Shown here: positions 2,585 to 35,920 of the stretch, one piece after another | How the letters are laid out: each line of letters starts with the position of its first letter | How positions within the stretch are numbered: the first letter of the stretch is position 1 | Assembly: GCA_017646625.1 (NCBI GenBank) | Contig: JAGCMF010000034.1 | Location: 1 to 40,335, forward strand | Reading direction: 5' to 3' | Origin: Alistipes sp. | GTDB lineage: Bacteria > Bacteroidota > Bacteroidia > Bacteroidales > Rikenellaceae | DNA: 40,335 nt | Made by a program: the position numbers and the translations under genes | The notes under the pieces: generated by a model | What the model was told of the DNA's origin: nothing | Databases searched by the model: none | What the model saw: only the letters and a program-made list of their open reading frames with translations

Positions 2585-3679
2585 CTACTCGGGGCGTGTA
2601 CCAAAATCAAGATAGGGAGCAATACGTGCTGCCTCATCTTCCGAAAATATGTCATCTTCAATCATCTCTTCGATGGTACTCCAACCTCCTTTCAATTCTC
2701 TGTTGTTAATAATACGCTTGAGCATGCGGTTCGTAACATACGGATGAACCTTTAACTCATTCGAGGTCGCAAAGTTAATATTTATTTTTTTAATTTTAGC
2801 ACTATCACAACAAATTTGTGGTAAAATTATCGCAAAATTCTCCTCCGTAACCCATGCAAGCTCCGAAATCTGCTCACACGAGTAGTAACCACCGAGTAAT
2901 TCCCTATAACGGAGGATGTGAACAACACTCTTCTCACCAATGCCCCGAACACGTATCAGCGTTGCCGAGTCGGCACTATTAATCTCAACAGGAAAGATGG
3001 ACTCCTCTGCATCATACATAACCATCGGCTCAACAGCAGGAAAGATGATATAGGGCTCGAGGCGCGCAGCCATAGCACTATCGACAGCATAACACTCCGC
3101 AAACTCCTCAATACTCCTATAGCCACCAATCATATCTCTGTAGCGCACGACAAGCTCCGCCTGGCGAAGAGTGAAGCCCAACGTGCGAAGGAAAGAAGAG
3201 GTAACAGTATCGAGCATAAATGCCCTATACTCCACAACAACACTATCGCGCACAGCAATACTATCATGATGCGAATAATCATCATATGCGACCCTATGGT
3301 AGCGATACTTTTCACCTATATTTATATATGGCTCGAGAGCAAAATAGAGGGAGTCCGTAATGCCATGACACAGCGCTACATCCTCCTTGATGCGATATAC
3401 CTTACCTGCCTCGCGCCAACGAATGATGCTCACTGCAACACCCCTATCCACACCCGCATCAAGAAGCGTGCGTAGGTCAGCCTCATTAGGGTCAAAGGGT
3501 TGCAACACGCGAATAACGGCACTATCGCCAACATGAGTAGTATCACGCAACGGCGCATATACATCAGCACGTCTATAGCGCGGTGACGGCTCGGCAAGGT
3601 ATGCAAGGAGGAGTATCACCACAAGAAGTGGGATAAGATATATCAAGCCCCTGATATGTTGCTTCGACGCCTCGCCCAT
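2585..3679 (-). CDS. Membrane-anchored helix-hairpin-helix (ComEA-like) protein
   Basis: 364 residues. An N-terminal membrane segment (about residues 10-27, rich in Leu/Ile/Val) is followed by four HhH-like repeats. Each has a hydrophobic helix, a G-containing turn and a closing GG(Y/W)xSxE-type motif: LGFTLRQAELVVRYRD, VRGIGEKSVVHILRYRELL and VTNRMLKRIINNRELKGG are the clearest. HhH motifs bind the DNA backbone non-specifically. ComEA-type proteins receive incoming DNA in the periplasm, and such multi-HhH anchored proteins are common in Bacteroidetes. The repeat number exceeds that of classical ComEA. It is the last gene of the Kdo/ubiD run, six bases after ubiD. A real role in DNA uptake is inference only. 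Confidence 0.8.
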   Translation of the reverse strand: MGEASKQHIRGLIYLIPLLVVILLLAYLAEPSPRYRRADVYAPLRDTTHVGDSAVIRVLQPFDPNEADLRTLLDAGVDRGVAVSIIRWREAGKVYRIKEDVALCHGITDSLYFALEPYINIGEKYRYHRVAYDDYSHHDSIAVRDSVVVEYRAFMLDTVTSSFLRTLGFTLRQAELVVRYRDMIGGYRSIEEFAECYAVDSAMAARLEPYIIFPAVEPMVMYDAEESIFPVEINSADSATLIRVRGIGEKSVVHILRYRELLGGYYSCEQISELAWVTEENFAIILPQICCDSAKIKKININFATSNELKVHPYVTNRMLKRIINNRELKGGWSTIEEMIEDDIFSEDEAARIAPYLDFGTRPE

Positions 3680-31300: not shown

Positions 31301-32530
31301 GTAGCCATCGAACACTACCCTCTCCTCATACTCGCCAGTCTCGGGGTTGAGCCACATCATGCTCTTCGACACACAATCACCCGTAGGTATAAACTCGTCA
31401 TCAGAGTTGTAGTCGGGGTTATTAGCGACCACAGGCATAGGTAATGCCGAGTAGTAGGGGCCGTAGAGCAGTGGGCGGTTACCATACTGGTCACGGTTAA
31501 GCAGGCTCAACAACATATGGGGTGTTGAGGGGTTATTTGAGTTCATCGGAGGGTTCGCCATCGCACGTATTGTCACCGAGGCGTACGACGAGAAACCTAT
31601 GAGTATCACCGCCACAGCAAGTGCCACGCCGTTGAGCACACGGTAGCCCTTACGATGGGTGTAAAGGATGATTATGCCAAGGGCGGTGAAGATGAGCAGC
31701 AAGAATATCAGCATACCCATGTTCACAGGCATGCCGAGGCTATTTACCGCGAAGGTGTCGAATGCTGCGCCGAGAGCCACAGTATATGGGATGATTATTC
31801 CATTTATCGCGCCGAGGATTAGTAGCGAGACGACAAGGGCAAGCATCATCCTTATGACATAGCTCTTTGGGGTCTTTAGCTCGTTGCGGCGGAAGAACCA
31901 TATCATCACCAGCGCAGGTATTGTGAGCAGGTTAAGGATATGCACGCCTATAGATAGACCCATGAGGTAGGCGATGAGTATTATCCAGCGCATGGATGTG
32001 TGTCGGTGGGCATTCTCCTCCCACTTGAACATGAGCCATACCACGAGTGCCGTGAACATCGACGACATGGCATACACCTCGCCCTCGACAGCCGAGAACC
32101 AGAAGGTGTCGGTGTAGGCATACGACAGCGCGCCTATGACACCAGCGCCGAGTATGAGCACCATGCGGTGCAACGACATCTCACCCTTCTCATCCTCGCC
32201 ACGCGATGTCATGCGGCGTGCGAGGTGTGTTATTGTCCAGAAGAGGAAGAGTATACAGAGGCCCGATGCCACGCAGTTCATGGCATTTATCATCACGGGC
32301 ACACTCTCCGCCGAGGGTGCGAATATAGATGCCAGACGTGCCAGCATCATGAAGAGTGGCGCCCCGGGAGGGTGTCCCACCTCCAACTTATAGGATGTAG
32401 CAATAAACTCGCTACAGTCCCACAGACTCGCCGTAGGCTCCATGGTAAGCAGGTAGGAGATGGTAGCGATGACGAATACCGCCCAGCCTGCAATGTTGTT
32501 CCAAAGTTTGAATCTATTCATATTCTGCAT
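28370..32530 (-). CDS. Large multi-pass membrane protein, DUF2723 (TMEM260-like), with long soluble C-terminus
   Basis: About 1386 residues from the ATG at 32530; another in-frame ATG at 32521 is equally good. An upstream in-frame extension crosses the promoter and was rejected. The N-terminal half has about a dozen hydrophobic helices and the family hallmark EPTASLWDCSEFIATSYKLE, followed by VGHPPGAPLFMMLARL. This resembles GT-C-fold glycosyltransferases, which have early acidic residues after the first helix. A central YGNRPLLYGPYYSALP block follows. The C-terminal about 650 residues are soluble, helical and acidic, possibly TPR-like. TMEM260 is a eukaryotic O-mannosyltransferase, so a polyprenyl-sugar-dependent protein glycosylation role is plausible but not shown. 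It heads the operon to cysS. Confidence 0.85.
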   Translation of the reverse strand: MQNMNRFKLWNNIAGWAVFVIATISYLLTMEPTASLWDCSEFIATSYKLEVGHPPGAPLFMMLARLASIFAPSAESVPVMINAMNCVASGLCILFLFWTITHLARRMTSRGEDEKGEMSLHRMVLILGAGVIGALSYAYTDTFWFSAVEGEVYAMSSMFTALVVWLMFKWEENAHRHTSMRWIILIAYLMGLSIGVHILNLLTIPALVMIWFFRRNELKTPKSYVIRMMLALVVSLLILGAINGIIIPYTVALGAAFDTFAVNSLGMPVNMGMLIFLLLIFTALGIIILYTHRKGYRVLNGVALAVAVILIGFSSYASVTIRAMANPPMNSNNPSTPHMLLSLLNRDQYGNRPLLYGPYYSALPMPVVANNPDYNSDDEFIPTGDCVSKSMMWLNPETGEYEERVVFDGYSYPSEANRLFPRMWHYSKQASYEEGWVALNGGRPTVCRTSDDGSVWFEPTAMEDIGYFLGYQMGDMFWRYFMWNFVGRQDDRQLQSDPENRIYLHGGWLSGIDFIDELYAGARTSLPTDMQSNAAHNTYFFLPLLLGLLGLVYQLNTDWRNFIVVMLLFVMMGIALVVYFNTAPDEPRERDYVYAGAFYAFSIWLGLGVMAIGDIFATLARKLKKHSSRTMVTAAVMSVLLASSVPAVLAVENWDDHDRSGRYMARDIGRNYLNSVPQNAIIINFGDNDTFPLWYCQEVEGVRPDVRVMNSSYLGGEWYIDEMKLAANDAAGVPFTIPSTKYSFVNDWVIVAPLVEVLDVEAARNLRAERRRIENLERYNITYTDLFGEQKSITGSYYDITANINDAQDIIEEYQPIIEEFSANGDMQSEAFYDAYVIYAQAYDIFEAIIGNDDFMTDYEIMDRYWAFSDILADKPMALKDVIRLFSSDESMTIAINDGMSHILGEGEIIPADMRKEDYAILGRLKAKVDSSVDGQESDYILSVPTYVIPVDREAAIASGILTEADQRDIVDEVRLSLGDKRFITKDHLMMLDLLAHFGWNRPLSFTQAHLMQDYGIVDYARFDGYAFTFVPVYTRYRSGAELGYLNADALYPFFMGDASVREPLHFGNLADDDVLVDYFYRYNISASRLRENFARVATEFLRRGTAEDVASAENLLDRGLEVLPSHKIEFSHSNTQPFLRGYYTIANYYLGLATEELEAAIAVFDDMLGMNTTIEHVGDNFLYFYELSDATAQLQATVMHRGMDASVVDEYLLRSDDYFNHAEACYRKGDVLAAEYIKSRGEWVRYYLQYASYDSFSMRISDELYNAMLDIIETLDTSHLLAGSFDWVANGDAAEPLVEEALNFDALAQDYVAAISRITPSTYDENDPQMIVIERHICNIFEIYNSLPAVRATAEGENYASYINAAEQLLTSDAGYRVLEMYGMI

Positions 32531-32555
32531 AATTCTCTTTTCTCCAATTAATCTG

Positions 32556-32563
32556 CAAATATA
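32556..32563 (-). promoter_or_regulatory. -7 element of the DUF2723 operon
   Basis: The minus strand reads TATATTTG, an exact match, with a weak -33 (TTCG, 32583-32586) at the correct 19-base spacing. It lies 26 bases before the ATG at 32530. Confidence 0.65.
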
Positions 32564-32780
32564 ATAATATTTGATTGATAAACGAACATTTATTCCAATT
32601 ATTTTTTTCGCCACACTAAATATCACTCTTCCACTACCCCGCAACCACCACATGCGATACCGAAAAGAGCCAACATAAGAGGGTCATCAACAATTCCTAT
32701 ATAGCACAATTTTCCACTATTTGGAAATAATATACAATCCCCGAGCACCACAATTTAATTTAAATTTTTTTGGCGTTTGT

Positions 32781-32811
32781 TTTGCATAATTAAGAAATTA
32801 TCTTACCTTTG
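32781..32811 (+). promoter_or_regulatory. Promoter of the surface lipoprotein
   Basis: TTTG (32781-32784), exactly 19 bases, then TACCTTTG (32804-32811): a full match to the Bacteroidetes consensus. Predicted start of transcription is about 32815-32818, about 295 nt before the lipoprotein ATG at 33113, an unusually long leader. Confidence 0.8.
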
Positions 32812-32830
32812 TGATAGACTATCCAATAAG

Positions 32831-32923
32831 ATGATGTATTCGAAGATTACATATCGCAATACAATCCTCCTCCCAAGTTGCATCGGGGGGGGGATTTTTG
32901 CTGTGTATCAACGAATTACATAA
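32831..32923 (+). CDS. Candidate 30-residue leader ORF across the G-tract hairpin
   Basis: An ATG about 15 nt after the predicted transcription start opens a 30-codon frame (starting MMYSKITYRN) that ends with TAA at 32921-32923. It passes straight through the hairpin at 32864-32895 and the nine-G tract, encoding consecutive glycines there. Loss of one G would shift it to a stop shortly after (near 32930); gain of one G would extend it to about 32990. A ribosome reading it could open the hairpin. No homologue is recognised and it may not be translated. Confidence 0.3.
   Translation: MMYSKITYRNTILLPSCIGGGIFAVYQRIT
32864..32899 (+). promoter_or_regulatory. Terminator-like attenuator hairpin with nine-G tract in the leader
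   Basis: An 11-bp stem (two G-U pairs): left arm 32864-32874, ten-base loop, right arm 32885-32895, whose first nine bases are all G (32885-32893). Four further T follow (32896-32899), so this looks like an intrinsic terminator inside the 5' leader of the lipoprotein gene. Because one arm is a homopolymer, slippage would change the stem's length and register and the frame of the overlapping leader ORF. The regulatory role is inferred. Confidence 0.55.
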
Positions 32924-32962
32924 ATAAATCTTCCTATAATCCCTATAATATACAAAAGGTAT

Positions 32963-33036
32963 CCTCGCCTCCTTCGGTTGGCGGGGCGTAATGCGTTGTA
33001 TCTGTGGCATCTACTTGCAGCCACAACGCCATAGAG
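32963..33036 (+). promoter_or_regulatory. Further structured part of the lipoprotein leader
   Basis: Two more stems lie between the attenuator and the gene. CCTCGCC (32963-32969) pairs with GGCGGGG (32980-32986). A two-step hairpin follows, GCGTT...AACGC enclosing GTGGC...GCCAC (about 32993-33031). I do not recognise a known riboswitch consensus. The last 50 bases before the ATG are A/T-rich and unstructured, as expected for translation initiation without a Shine-Dalgarno. Confidence 0.4.
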
Positions 33037-33112
33037 AGTATCTCGCGCAATATTTTATCAAAACACAAAGAATACACAATTTTTCAATTAATTAATTTTT
33101 AACATTTTCACT

Positions 33113-35920
33113 ATGAAAAGATTTTTAGCTTTAGCGGCATTGGTACTCGGCGTGGTATCATGTCAGACAGAGCCCGAGGGTCTCGACGTTATCGTCGATG
33201 GCGAGGTTGACACTGTTATCACCGTAAACATTCCCGAATCGGAGACTCGTGCAAACGCAGGCACAAACAGCGCAGAGGGCGCATTTACTAATGGTGTACT
33301 CGGCACAGAGAGCGACAACACCACTATGCGCTACATCTTCCAGGTCTACTACAATGGCGAGACATCGGACGACAAGCACCATCGCCAGGTTGCATACAGC
33401 GATGGTACTTCTGTATCGTTCCCAGTACGTCTTATCCCTGGTCGCGACTATAGGTTTGTTGTTTGGGCAGATGTTGTTGCCGATGGCAAGAACGACACCG
33501 ACCTTCACTACAACACTGACGACCTTACAAACATTACTCTCGAGGGCGATTGGAATGCTATGGACGAGACTCGTGATGCTTTCACGGCTTACAAGGATGT
33601 TGTACAGTACAACGGCCAGCAGGCTATCAACATCGACCTCTATCGTCCATTTGCCAAGCTTCGCGTCTTGACTACCGATTTCGACGTGCTCGAGAGCTAC
33701 GGTGTTTCGGCCAAGTATGCCACTGTTGAGTATACCACCAAGCACCGCGCGGGCTTCAACGCGTATACTGGCGCGGCAGCAGCTGCTTCTGAGACCAAGA
33801 CTCACCGCTACGAGATTGCAAACTACTCTACCGAGACTAACGCATCGCGCACAATCTTCTCTGACTACTTCTTTGCCGAGAACGACGTTGTAAGCTTTAA
33901 TCTCTATGTATATGAGGATGAGGCTAGGACTAAGCTTATCAAGCAGATTGCCTTCAACACCGACATTAACGTTAAGCGCAACTACTTGACTACTTTGAAG
34001 GGTAATGTTCTTACCGATGGCAACAAGGTTAACATCGAGGTTAAGCCAGGATTGGGCGGCACTGACGATCCTGATTATAACTACAACGTTCTCACATCGG
34101 GCGACGAGCTTGTTGCAGCTATAGCTAACGGTGGTAGCTACAAGGTAGGTAACAATATCTACGTTGCTGATACACGTGCTGCGCTTGCTACTCGTGCTGC
34201 AGCTAGCCAGACTACTACCATCCTAAACCTCAACGGCTATAAGATCATCTTCGAGGAGGGCGCTACTATCGAGGTGCCTGTAGGCAAGACTCTTATTATC
34301 AACGATGAGACGGAGAACAACACCGGTGCTATCGAGGCAGGCAATAATGCAGGTTTCGACAACAAGGGTACTATAAAGATTGAGAGCGGTATCGTTGGCG
34401 AGAGCTCTATCGACAACAATGGTGGTACTGTAAACATCGAGGGTGGTGACCTTGCAACAGGTGCAGTCCAGAACAACAGCGGTACTGCTAACATCGTAGG
34501 TGACAACATCGACAAGAATGTTGTTAACGGCGAGGTAACTGACTACTATGCAGGCATTATCAAGGCATTTGCTGAGGGTGGCGAGTTCACGTTGGGTGCA
34601 AGCCTCAAGCTTGAGCAGCCTCTTACACTTGCTAATGGCAAGACTTTGAAACTCACAATCGCTGAGGGCGCAGTATTGAGCATCGTTGATACTACATCTA
34701 AGAACTTCCAGCTTATCGACAACCGTGGTACACTCACAGTTGAGGGTGCTGGTAAGATGACTGTTGAGGCTACTATCAATAGCGGCTGGAGTCGCTACTC
34801 AGCAGTTATCGCTAACAATCCTGGTGGTAACCTCACAGTTAAGGGTGTAACCCTTGAGCACCTCGGAGGTACGGATATGGCTTACGGTATCGATAACCTC
34901 ACAAATGGCAAGGGCACATCTGCTGTTGCGACTATCAACGAGGGTGCAGTTGTTAAGTCTACTTATCGTGCAGTTCGTATGTTCCTCAATGGTGTTGAGG
35001 CAAATAACAGCCTTACTGTAAATGATGGTGCTGTTATCGAGAGCACAGGTGGCAACAGGTCTATCTGGATGCAGGATCCAAGCGCAAATGCCAACACTGG
35101 TACATTGGTTGTAAACCAGGGCGCAACTCTTAAGGGTGATGCATATCTTTCAGTAACTGCTGGCTCTACAGAGTGGCCTGTAAGCGTTAAAATAGCTGAT
35201 GCTGCATTCGCTGAGGGTTACACAGTTGTAACCAGCAATGTTCCTGCTGACTATAAGGTGGTTGAGAAGAATGGTGTTTGGACAGTTGTTCCTAACTTCA
35301 ACGATAACTTCGCAGAGAACACTTGGGAGAATATTATCAAAGCTTGTCAAAATGATATCGTTCCAGAGACTTGGGAAGTAGGTAACAACAAGACAATGAC
35401 TATCGGTGATAAGGAGTACGCAATTCGCATTATTGGCAAAAACCACGATACCTACACTGCAGGTGGTAGGGCTCCTCTTACATTCCAAATAGCAGAGGTC
35501 TGTGGTTCTGCAGCGATGAATGCGACTCAAACCAACACTACTGGTTGGTCTGGCTCTCAGATGAGAACCGTTACTATGCCAGAGATTCTCGCAGCTATGC
35601 CAGTTAAGGATGCAATTAAGGCAGTTAACAAAGAGACTCTAAATGGTACAAGAGATGGTTTGGAGACTACTTCTGACAAGTTGTTCTTGTTGTCAGAGGT
35701 AGAGGTTAATGGCTCAGTATATTTCTCTAATAATTTTGCAGAGGGCTCACGTTATGCTTTCTATACCGGTCTCGACTCTCAAATTATGAATGCATCTTAC
35801 TGGCTCCGTGGTCCTGGTAAAAACAACGCTATTGGTTTTACTCAAATCAATAGTAGCGGTTATATGGCTAATGGCAGTGCAGAGTATGCTTGTGGTGTAG
35901 TATTCGGCTTCTGCTTCTAA
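33113..35920 (+). CDS. Surface lipoprotein: fimbrillin-like N-terminus, beta-helix repeats, C-terminal DUF6273-like domain
   Basis: 935 residues. Lipoprotein signal with Cys17 in LGVVSCQ. Residues about 30-310 resemble the DUF6562/fimbrillin-type beta-sandwich found in Bacteroidales surface lipoproteins (IPESETRAN, GRDYRFVVWAD, YRPFAKLRVLTTDF). Residues about 320-725 are Gly/Asn/Thr-rich short beta-strands (GTIKIESGIVG, GTVNIEGGDL, GTLTVEGAGKM), like a parallel beta-helix. Residues about 728-935 carry DUF6273 marks: an early Trp region (TWENIIKAC), GWSGSQMR, LFLLSEVEVNG, YWLRGPG and a hydrophobic C-terminal strand GVVFGFCF. The last domain's DNA is more A/T-rich than the N-terminal part, suggesting shuffling. 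Probably a surface adhesin or ligand-binding protein; function unknown. Confidence 0.85.
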   Translation: MKRFLALAALVLGVVSCQTEPEGLDVIVDGEVDTVITVNIPESETRANAGTNSAEGAFTNGVLGTESDNTTMRYIFQVYYNGETSDDKHHRQVAYSDGTSVSFPVRLIPGRDYRFVVWADVVADGKNDTDLHYNTDDLTNITLEGDWNAMDETRDAFTAYKDVVQYNGQQAINIDLYRPFAKLRVLTTDFDVLESYGVSAKYATVEYTTKHRAGFNAYTGAAAAASETKTHRYEIANYSTETNASRTIFSDYFFAENDVVSFNLYVYEDEARTKLIKQIAFNTDINVKRNYLTTLKGNVLTDGNKVNIEVKPGLGGTDDPDYNYNVLTSGDELVAAIANGGSYKVGNNIYVADTRAALATRAAASQTTTILNLNGYKIIFEEGATIEVPVGKTLIINDETENNTGAIEAGNNAGFDNKGTIKIESGIVGESSIDNNGGTVNIEGGDLATGAVQNNSGTANIVGDNIDKNVVNGEVTDYYAGIIKAFAEGGEFTLGASLKLEQPLTLANGKTLKLTIAEGAVLSIVDTTSKNFQLIDNRGTLTVEGAGKMTVEATINSGWSRYSAVIANNPGGNLTVKGVTLEHLGGTDMAYGIDNLTNGKGTSAVATINEGAVVKSTYRAVRMFLNGVEANNSLTVNDGAVIESTGGNRSIWMQDPSANANTGTLVVNQGATLKGDAYLSVTAGSTEWPVSVKIADAAFAEGYTVVTSNVPADYKVVEKNGVWTVVPNFNDNFAENTWENIIKACQNDIVPETWEVGNNKTMTIGDKEYAIRIIGKNHDTYTAGGRAPLTFQIAEVCGSAAMNATQTNTTGWSGSQMRTVTMPEILAAMPVKDAIKAVNKETLNGTRDGLETTSDKLFLLSEVEVNGSVYFSNNFAEGSRYAFYTGLDSQIMNASYWLRGPGKNNAIGFTQINSSGYMANGSAEYACGVVFGFCF

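Follow-up and report, generated by a model that had tools for sequence, protein, structure and literature searches.

This locus raises the question of what a run of nine G residues is doing between the promoter and the start codon of a lipoprotein gene. Surface variation in gut Bacteroidales is generally attributed in the main to inversion of DNA. The window (the whole stretch of DNA that was analysed, 40,335 nt) is a 40-kb contig, C36, of an assembly of 1.87 Mb in 37 contigs, and the G9 tract is the sole run of at least six G or C across the whole of it.

The locus and its G tract

The leader and the gene that follows it comprise the following features:

32781..32811, + strand: predicted Bacteroidetes-type promoter, TTTG + 19-nt spacer + TACCTTTG (sequence)
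32831..32923, + strand: leader ORF in its present short form (G9), ATGATG...TAA, 30 codons, with the ATG at 32831 or 32834
32863..32896, + strand: hairpin H0, a pyrimidine stretch paired with the G tract, then ATTTTT (RNA folding)
32885..32893, + strand: G9 tract, the proposed slippage site (sequence)
32906..32919, + strand: conserved motif TATCAACGAATTAC 3' of the tract, which anchors the long frame through TAC = Tyr (leader comparison)
32921..32923, + strand: stop of the short frame (present state), 39 nt before H1 (ORF reading)
32924..32961, + strand: C-rich, G-poor unstructured stretch from the short stop to H1, putatively rut-like (composition, folding)
32963..32986, + strand: hairpin H1, with a 7-bp outer stem (folding, comparison)
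32989..32991, + strand: long-frame stop, 2 nt past H1, used when the tract gains one G (ORF reading)
33003..33025, + strand: hairpin H2, TGTGGC/GCCACA (folding)
33113..35920, + strand: lipoprotein gene, 935 aa, with DUF6562 (46-316) and DUF6273 (805-929) (domain matches)

The product of 33113-35920 matches DUF6562 with an E value of 1.3e-33, carries DUF6273 at its C-terminus and would be a lipoprotein, as read from its MKRFLALAALVLGVVSC start. Upstream of it, the TTTG box (32781-32784) and TACCTTTG (32804-32811) form a promoter whose consensus we take to be that of the Bacteroidetes type, and the predicted leader is 296 nt long, with the G9 tract 73 nt 3' of TACCTTTG and the lipoprotein ATG 219 nt beyond the end of the tract. 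This agrees with the preliminary description, which had proposed a full-consensus promoter and a leader of about 295 nt; the nine consecutive G (32885-32893) and the 30-codon ORF running across them (32831-32923) that it reported are likewise present. Most related leaders have a TAnnTTTG box 70-95 nt 5' of the tract and a TTG-containing box 18-20 nt before that. The named relatives that share these lipoproteins are for the most part metagenome-assembled genomes under the label Alistipes sp. or Rikenellaceae, and the titles of many of them name a ruminant host.

This arrangement differs from the more familiar types of phase switch. The tract is downstream of TACCTTTG rather than between the promoter boxes, where a promoter-spacing switch would have it, and it lies outside the reading frame of the surface gene, unlike a coding-region contingency tract. 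Promoter inversion was rejected on finding zero inverted repeats of at least 12 within 32450-33250. A known RNA family was rejected too, the Rfam search of 32600-33200 giving a single sub-threshold match, RsaJ. Over the same 32600-33200, a simple terminator scan allowing loops of up to 8 found no candidate.

In the genome of 1.87 Mb, distinct runs of at least seven G number 20 (12 G9, 3 G8 and 5 G7, none longer). Among the 8 DUF6562 paralogs listed (9 matches in total), 5 have G8 or G9 in the leader (on C15, C18, C34, C35 and C36) and 3 have a leader without a tract (on C23, C4 and C35:33159), a recurrence that, set against the 20 genomic runs, is more than chance. Across the genus, G9 occurs at least once in 101/101 genomes searched, and the paralog profile matched 38 of these 101. 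In 80 leaders that we selected from a longer list of genus matches, 36 have G8 or longer (G8-12) within 400 nt of the start codon; adding five leaders from the same genome as the window, chosen for having tracts, gives 41/85 tract-bearing leaders (23 G9, 8 G10, 8 G8 and 2 G12).

These 85 leaders, reduced to the 41 with a tract of at least 8, yielded 37 with a promoter match, 30 with a start codon at -66..-40, and 28 once L052 and L154, of different architecture, had been dropped. A second batch of 78 loci contributed 32 from unsampled records, with a tract in 12 and the ORF in 7 (5 of class B, described below, being dropped), and a third, of 28 places, had 14 that were used, 11 of them duplicates and 3 new, one with a tract (L301). 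The final set thus holds 36 leaders with an upstream ORF, with tracts of G8, G9, G10 and G12 in 6, 21, 8 and 1, and the removal of L131 and L270, which have no anchor, leaves 34 for frame tests. The variation in tract length is that seen between paralogs and species, with one genome per species. A search of 180 genus genomes found nothing closely related to the leader of the window itself, unlike the gene start.

Several other G runs deserve mention in their own right. In L049 (G000:C34:18188-18196) and in L280, L284 and L285 (all G040), G9 lies exactly between the promoter boxes (TTTG + 9-10 nt + G9 + TAA[AC]TTTG) before genes for other exported proteins, and these look like classic promoter-spacing slippage switches in the same genus. 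A dispersed repeat has six copies with G tracts in the genome (L038, L042 at 3223-3229, L045, L048, L050 and L053 at 3240-3247), with an end reading TTAT-G7-9-(T)CTGGCTA...CAGCC or near it, this end being a hairpin that carries a variable G tract of its own. Genome G076 has 219 overlapping G9 matches, far above other genus members, and in G063 very long G runs cluster on C2 near 769,062-769,134.

Reading frames on the two sides of the tract

As in a leader-peptide switch, the repeat lies within the predicted leader ORF, and in the window and the 34 related leaders a change of a repeat unit exchanges a short for a long leader peptide. The window ORF has 29-30 codons at G9, 52-53 at G10 or G7 and 31-32 at G11. 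In most tract leaders a start codon, ATG or GTG, stands some 50 nt ahead of the tract. Since the 36 leaders were chosen for an upstream ORF, both frame tests were repeated on an unfiltered set, namely all 54 tract leaders collected, with no ORF filter. An ATG or GTG lies exactly 15 nt before a conserved ACATAY in 20 of the 26 leaders of this set that have ACATAY, and in these 26 the interval from ACATAY to the tract has stops in frames 0/1/2 in 0/8/14 leaders; the corresponding count of 0/8/13 in the 36 leaders is conditioned by their choice.

On the downstream side, the frame set by the anchor is open for 60 nt in 30/34 leaders versus 4/34 in either other frame (34 anchored leaders of the 36), where composition predicts 37% open. 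The binomial p values of about 1e-9 for the open frame and 0.002 for each closed frame are too small owing to the relatedness of the leaders, which fall into 2 clusters by single linkage at 70% identity. With one leader per 80%-identity cluster, stops occur in 4/26/26 of 30. The unfiltered set gives open frames in 29/3/4 of 32 leaders with a TTAC anchor and 29/8/7 of 40 with TTA[CG]. The same leader also precedes another lipoprotein family (family 2, 12 leaders), where stops occur in 2/11/5 of 12. Simpler measures were weak: a naive open-frame shuffle, with a longest frame of at least 75 nt in 28/28 leaders versus 69% of shuffles, was replaced by the anchored test, and a leader ORF defined by ATG alone is present in 28/37 against 20.8 expected, weak on its own. 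Two of the five own-genome tract paralogs, L051 and L052, fit the ORF pattern poorly.

The two conserved half-frames are joined differently from leader to leader, because the distance from tract to anchor varies modulo 3 (13/8/6 of 27) and tract lengths differ; frames are consequently mixed. At present 16 of the 34 leaders are in the conserved frame (L151 scored among them, its longest frame being another), 13 are one G short and 5 two G short, the window leader being one of the 18/34 outside the conserved frame. By a longest-frame rule, 11 of the first 28 leaders are in it. The most direct comparison is between L120 and L132, which belong to one genome and are 88% identical outside the tract: the former has G10 and the long form (52 codons), the latter G9 and the short form (26). 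Among leaders without a tract, 41/44 have no long ORF; the other three (L123, L125 and L180) have an uninterrupted leader ORF of 45-64 codons, as though fixed in the long state.

Hairpins, stops and a proposed gate in the leader

The stops of the alternative frames are placed as a leader-peptide switch would place them, the short one before a hairpin and the long one past it: the long-frame stop is beyond H1 in 28/30 leaders, and stops of the other frames are ahead of H1 in 53/60. H1 itself folds at -6 kcal/mol or better in 32/36 leaders and starts 56-82 nt past the tract in the 35/36 where it was found, mostly at about 70 nt. RNAalifold on a MAFFT alignment of 28 DUF6562 leaders gave no common structure, and the analysis turned to single folds, shuffles and family 2. 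Against shuffles, the H1 region has a mean z of -1.94 (18/35 at the 5% level) and the H2 region, at +92..+140, one of -1.89 (17/35), while the stretch before H1 (+20..+64) is no better than shuffles (z -0.12, 2/35 at the 5% level); at +30..+68 the C/G ratio is 2.97, with C exceeding G in 35/35 leaders. In family 2, both sides of H1 have changed in 7/9 pairs, and 92.9% of its cells are paired, versus 79.4% in shuffles and 32-70% when slid, in 11/12 leaders (one identical window excluded) and for a structure read from these same sequences. No run of T follows H1 (T fraction 0.33 at +95..+110 over the 36 leaders). Lacking the U run of an intrinsic terminator, H1 does not evidently act as a terminator of the pil1 type, which would favour Rho; the genome encodes Rho.

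Building on the ORF, the frame choice, the stop geometry and H1, all shown by the comparison of leaders, we propose that the lipoprotein gene is subject to slippage-controlled, translation-gated attenuation through the leader ORF, the G tract being a contingency site in that ORF and not in the lipoprotein gene. We put the probability of this reading at roughly 0.6. Ribosomes would start at 32831 or 32834 and cross the G tract; at G9 they would stop at 32923, ahead of the bare C-rich stretch and H1, and with one G gained or two lost they would traverse H1 and stop at 32991. Early exit would leave the C-rich stretch bare and let H1 and H2 form, so that transcription would end in the leader, either by Rho loading on the C-rich stretch or at H1/H2, whereas ribosomes covering the stretch would allow the lipoprotein gene to be transcribed. 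Replication slippage in the population would flip single cells between the short and the long leader, and the window, at G9, would be OFF at present. We infer this direction, long being ON, by analogy with pil1 of S. gallolyticus, where the short leader gives low and the long leader high expression.

A different role for the tract was put forward in the preliminary description, namely that tract length tunes the strength of an intrinsic attenuator hairpin, H0, in which the tract supplies the 3' arm. That hairpin does exist in the window and is followed by ATTTTT, though folding gives its stem 12 bp (32863-32874 with 32885-32896, including several G.U pairs, and a 10-nt loop) where a terminator-like stem of 11 bp had been described. 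It is conserved in family 2 (z -3.07, 11/12 of the related leaders), which keeps the pyrimidine stretch in 12/12 and a loop of 8 nt in 11, and in the window the loss of one G weakens it, from -22.8 kcal/mol at G9 to -19.0 at G8. However, a further G is nearly neutral (-22.9 at G10, with -24.7 at G11), a translating ribosome would pass H0 whatever its frame, and in the 36 DUF6562 leaders H0 is not conserved, with a mean z of -0.75 versus shuffles, 3/36 at the 5% level and pyrimidine runs before the tract in 8/36 against 7.7 expected. Tuning of the hairpin is therefore not borne out, and we regard this attenuator as an unlikely explanation; the companion proposal, that tract length sets the leader frame, holds, in that the same arrangement occurs with G8, 9, 10 and 12 in the 36 leaders.

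Slippage might also be that of RNA polymerase, in which case each cell would mix short and long leaders and the tract would set a level of expression rather than a heritable switch. Homopolymers this long can cause transcriptional slippage, and the leader geometry would work equally well; nevertheless, the near-identical L120 and L132 differ in tract length, which slippage on DNA explains directly, making the polymerase version improbable. It is very unlikely that the G repeat is instead a length-dependent pairing site for a C/U-rich small RNA, as in the available accounts of RepG/tlpB of Helicobacter pylori: these do offer a variable G repeat at a like position in a leader, but the conserved open frames, the positions of stops around H1 and the mixture of frames would all be left unexplained. 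The least probable of these alternatives is that a small functional protein is made from the long leader ORF and is phase-variable independently of the lipoprotein. It would account for the single frame kept open on either side of the tract, but the differences per codon position (53/39/39 and 147/169/186 for DUF6562 leaders, 279/295/247 for family 2) lack a clear third-position bias, the sequence is little conserved beyond the motif, and H1 overlaps the final part of the ORF. These nearly flat differences suggest that the open frame has been kept rather than the peptide, as is expected of a cis-acting leader, and the leader peptide itself is probably unimportant.

Distribution and comparison with known systems

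The pattern of G8, 10-24 nt and TCANNNANTTAC was found in 40/180 genus genomes, a reversed-pattern control being absent from the matches listed. The search yielded 62 distinct loci that were examined, 59 of them new, with the leader ORF in 34 of the 58 that have enough sequence; the frame bias is weaker over the 59 motif-found loci (stops within 60 nt in frames 0/1/2 of 25/40/35). The genes downstream include those for fimbrillin-like (Mfa_like_1), BACON/LRR, Big_2, DUF6565 and DUF4988 proteins, as judged from 10 scanned proteins, 7 of which have a family at an E value of 0.001 or better (L343 falling below the curated cut-off).

A further group of ten leaders, class B (L121, L152, L154, L158, L162, L253, L259, L264, L268 and L272), has, immediately 5' of the tract, a box of the GTAAC or ATAAC type with TGA at its end, and the leader ORF is absent in 8/10. 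In several of these a pyrimidine stretch follows on the 3' side, placing the tract in the 5' arm of a hairpin, and the class B box (GTAACTC..TGA-like) looks similar to the class A motif when the latter is reverse-complemented. As a recombination or protein-binding motif in either orientation, TATCAACGANTTAC was rejected, with 79 genome-wide occurrences at up to 2 mismatches versus 61 for the control. Contigs end close to the leader and signal-peptide region in L264, L265, L268, L271, L272, L371 and L372, as expected if a near-identical leader and N-terminus are repeated within a genome; recombination between such loci is possible.

We tentatively extend translation-gated attenuation to a wider system in Rikenellaceae: a portable module of leader ORF, G tract, TCANNNANTTAC and H1 may stand before dozens of lipoprotein genes of several families, with independent slippage at each generating a combinatorial coat, and ribosome cover together with Rho, not an intrinsic terminator, may form the gate. 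The principle of leader-peptide phase variation is not new here, being already known from pil1. Among the titles and abstract openings listed by searches for phase variation through homopolymers or slipped strands in Bacteroidales, Bacteroidota, Rikenellaceae or Alistipes, in a largely open-access collection without bioRxiv preprints, none described such a system, and the absence of reports is accordingly weak evidence; the available text of a 2025 review of phase variation (PMC11868660) mentions neither leader peptide, attenuation nor gallolyticus. If the proposal is true, Bacteroidota would, within the literature searched, gain their first leader-peptide slippage switch, which would also be the first such switch on a mononucleotide tract. 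A slippage switch at many lipoprotein loci would then give gut Rikenellaceae a second way of varying their surface, with a state that could be read as tract length in ordinary metagenome reads. Leader-peptide phase variation, which we found described for one streptococcal pilus system only, would likewise become more general.

In Bacteroidales, surface genes are phase-switched via invertible promoters. The present locus is similar in that it concerns phase switching of a surface gene in the same order, and unlike it in having no inverted repeat of at least 12 in 32450-33250. The homopolymeric-tract contingency loci of Campylobacter and Neisseria are of the coding or promoter-spacer type, with mixed frames and surface proteins. 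Homopolymeric tracts, mixed frames and surface proteins are shared with our locus, where, in contrast, the tract lies in a separate upstream ORF instead of the surface gene or promoter spacer. The H. pylori RepG/tlpB system, from the accounts available, again has an mRNA leader with a G repeat of variable length; that repeat is read by a small RNA, whereas the present tract has a conserved reading frame on either side.

The closest parallel is the phase variation by leader peptide of pil1 and pil3 in Streptococcus gallolyticus, for pil1 shown by experiment (Danne et al., 2014; PMC3894217). In the available text of that study, GCAGA repeats lie in the pil1 leader ORF, and the long, highly expressed form blocks the terminator. 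As in the window, the repeat is inside a leader ORF with the gene of a surface structure downstream, and a frame change moves the stop from tens of bases before a hairpin to a position at or past it. The differences concern the repeat, a GCAGA pentamer in pil1/pil3 versus a G homopolymer here; the terminator, which in pil1 is intrinsic, has 6 T and was tested, versus H1 with no T run after it; and the loci, two described for pil1/pil3 versus many, before several lipoprotein families, here. The hosts too are far apart, a Firmicute for pil1/pil3 and a member of the Bacteroidota for the present leader.
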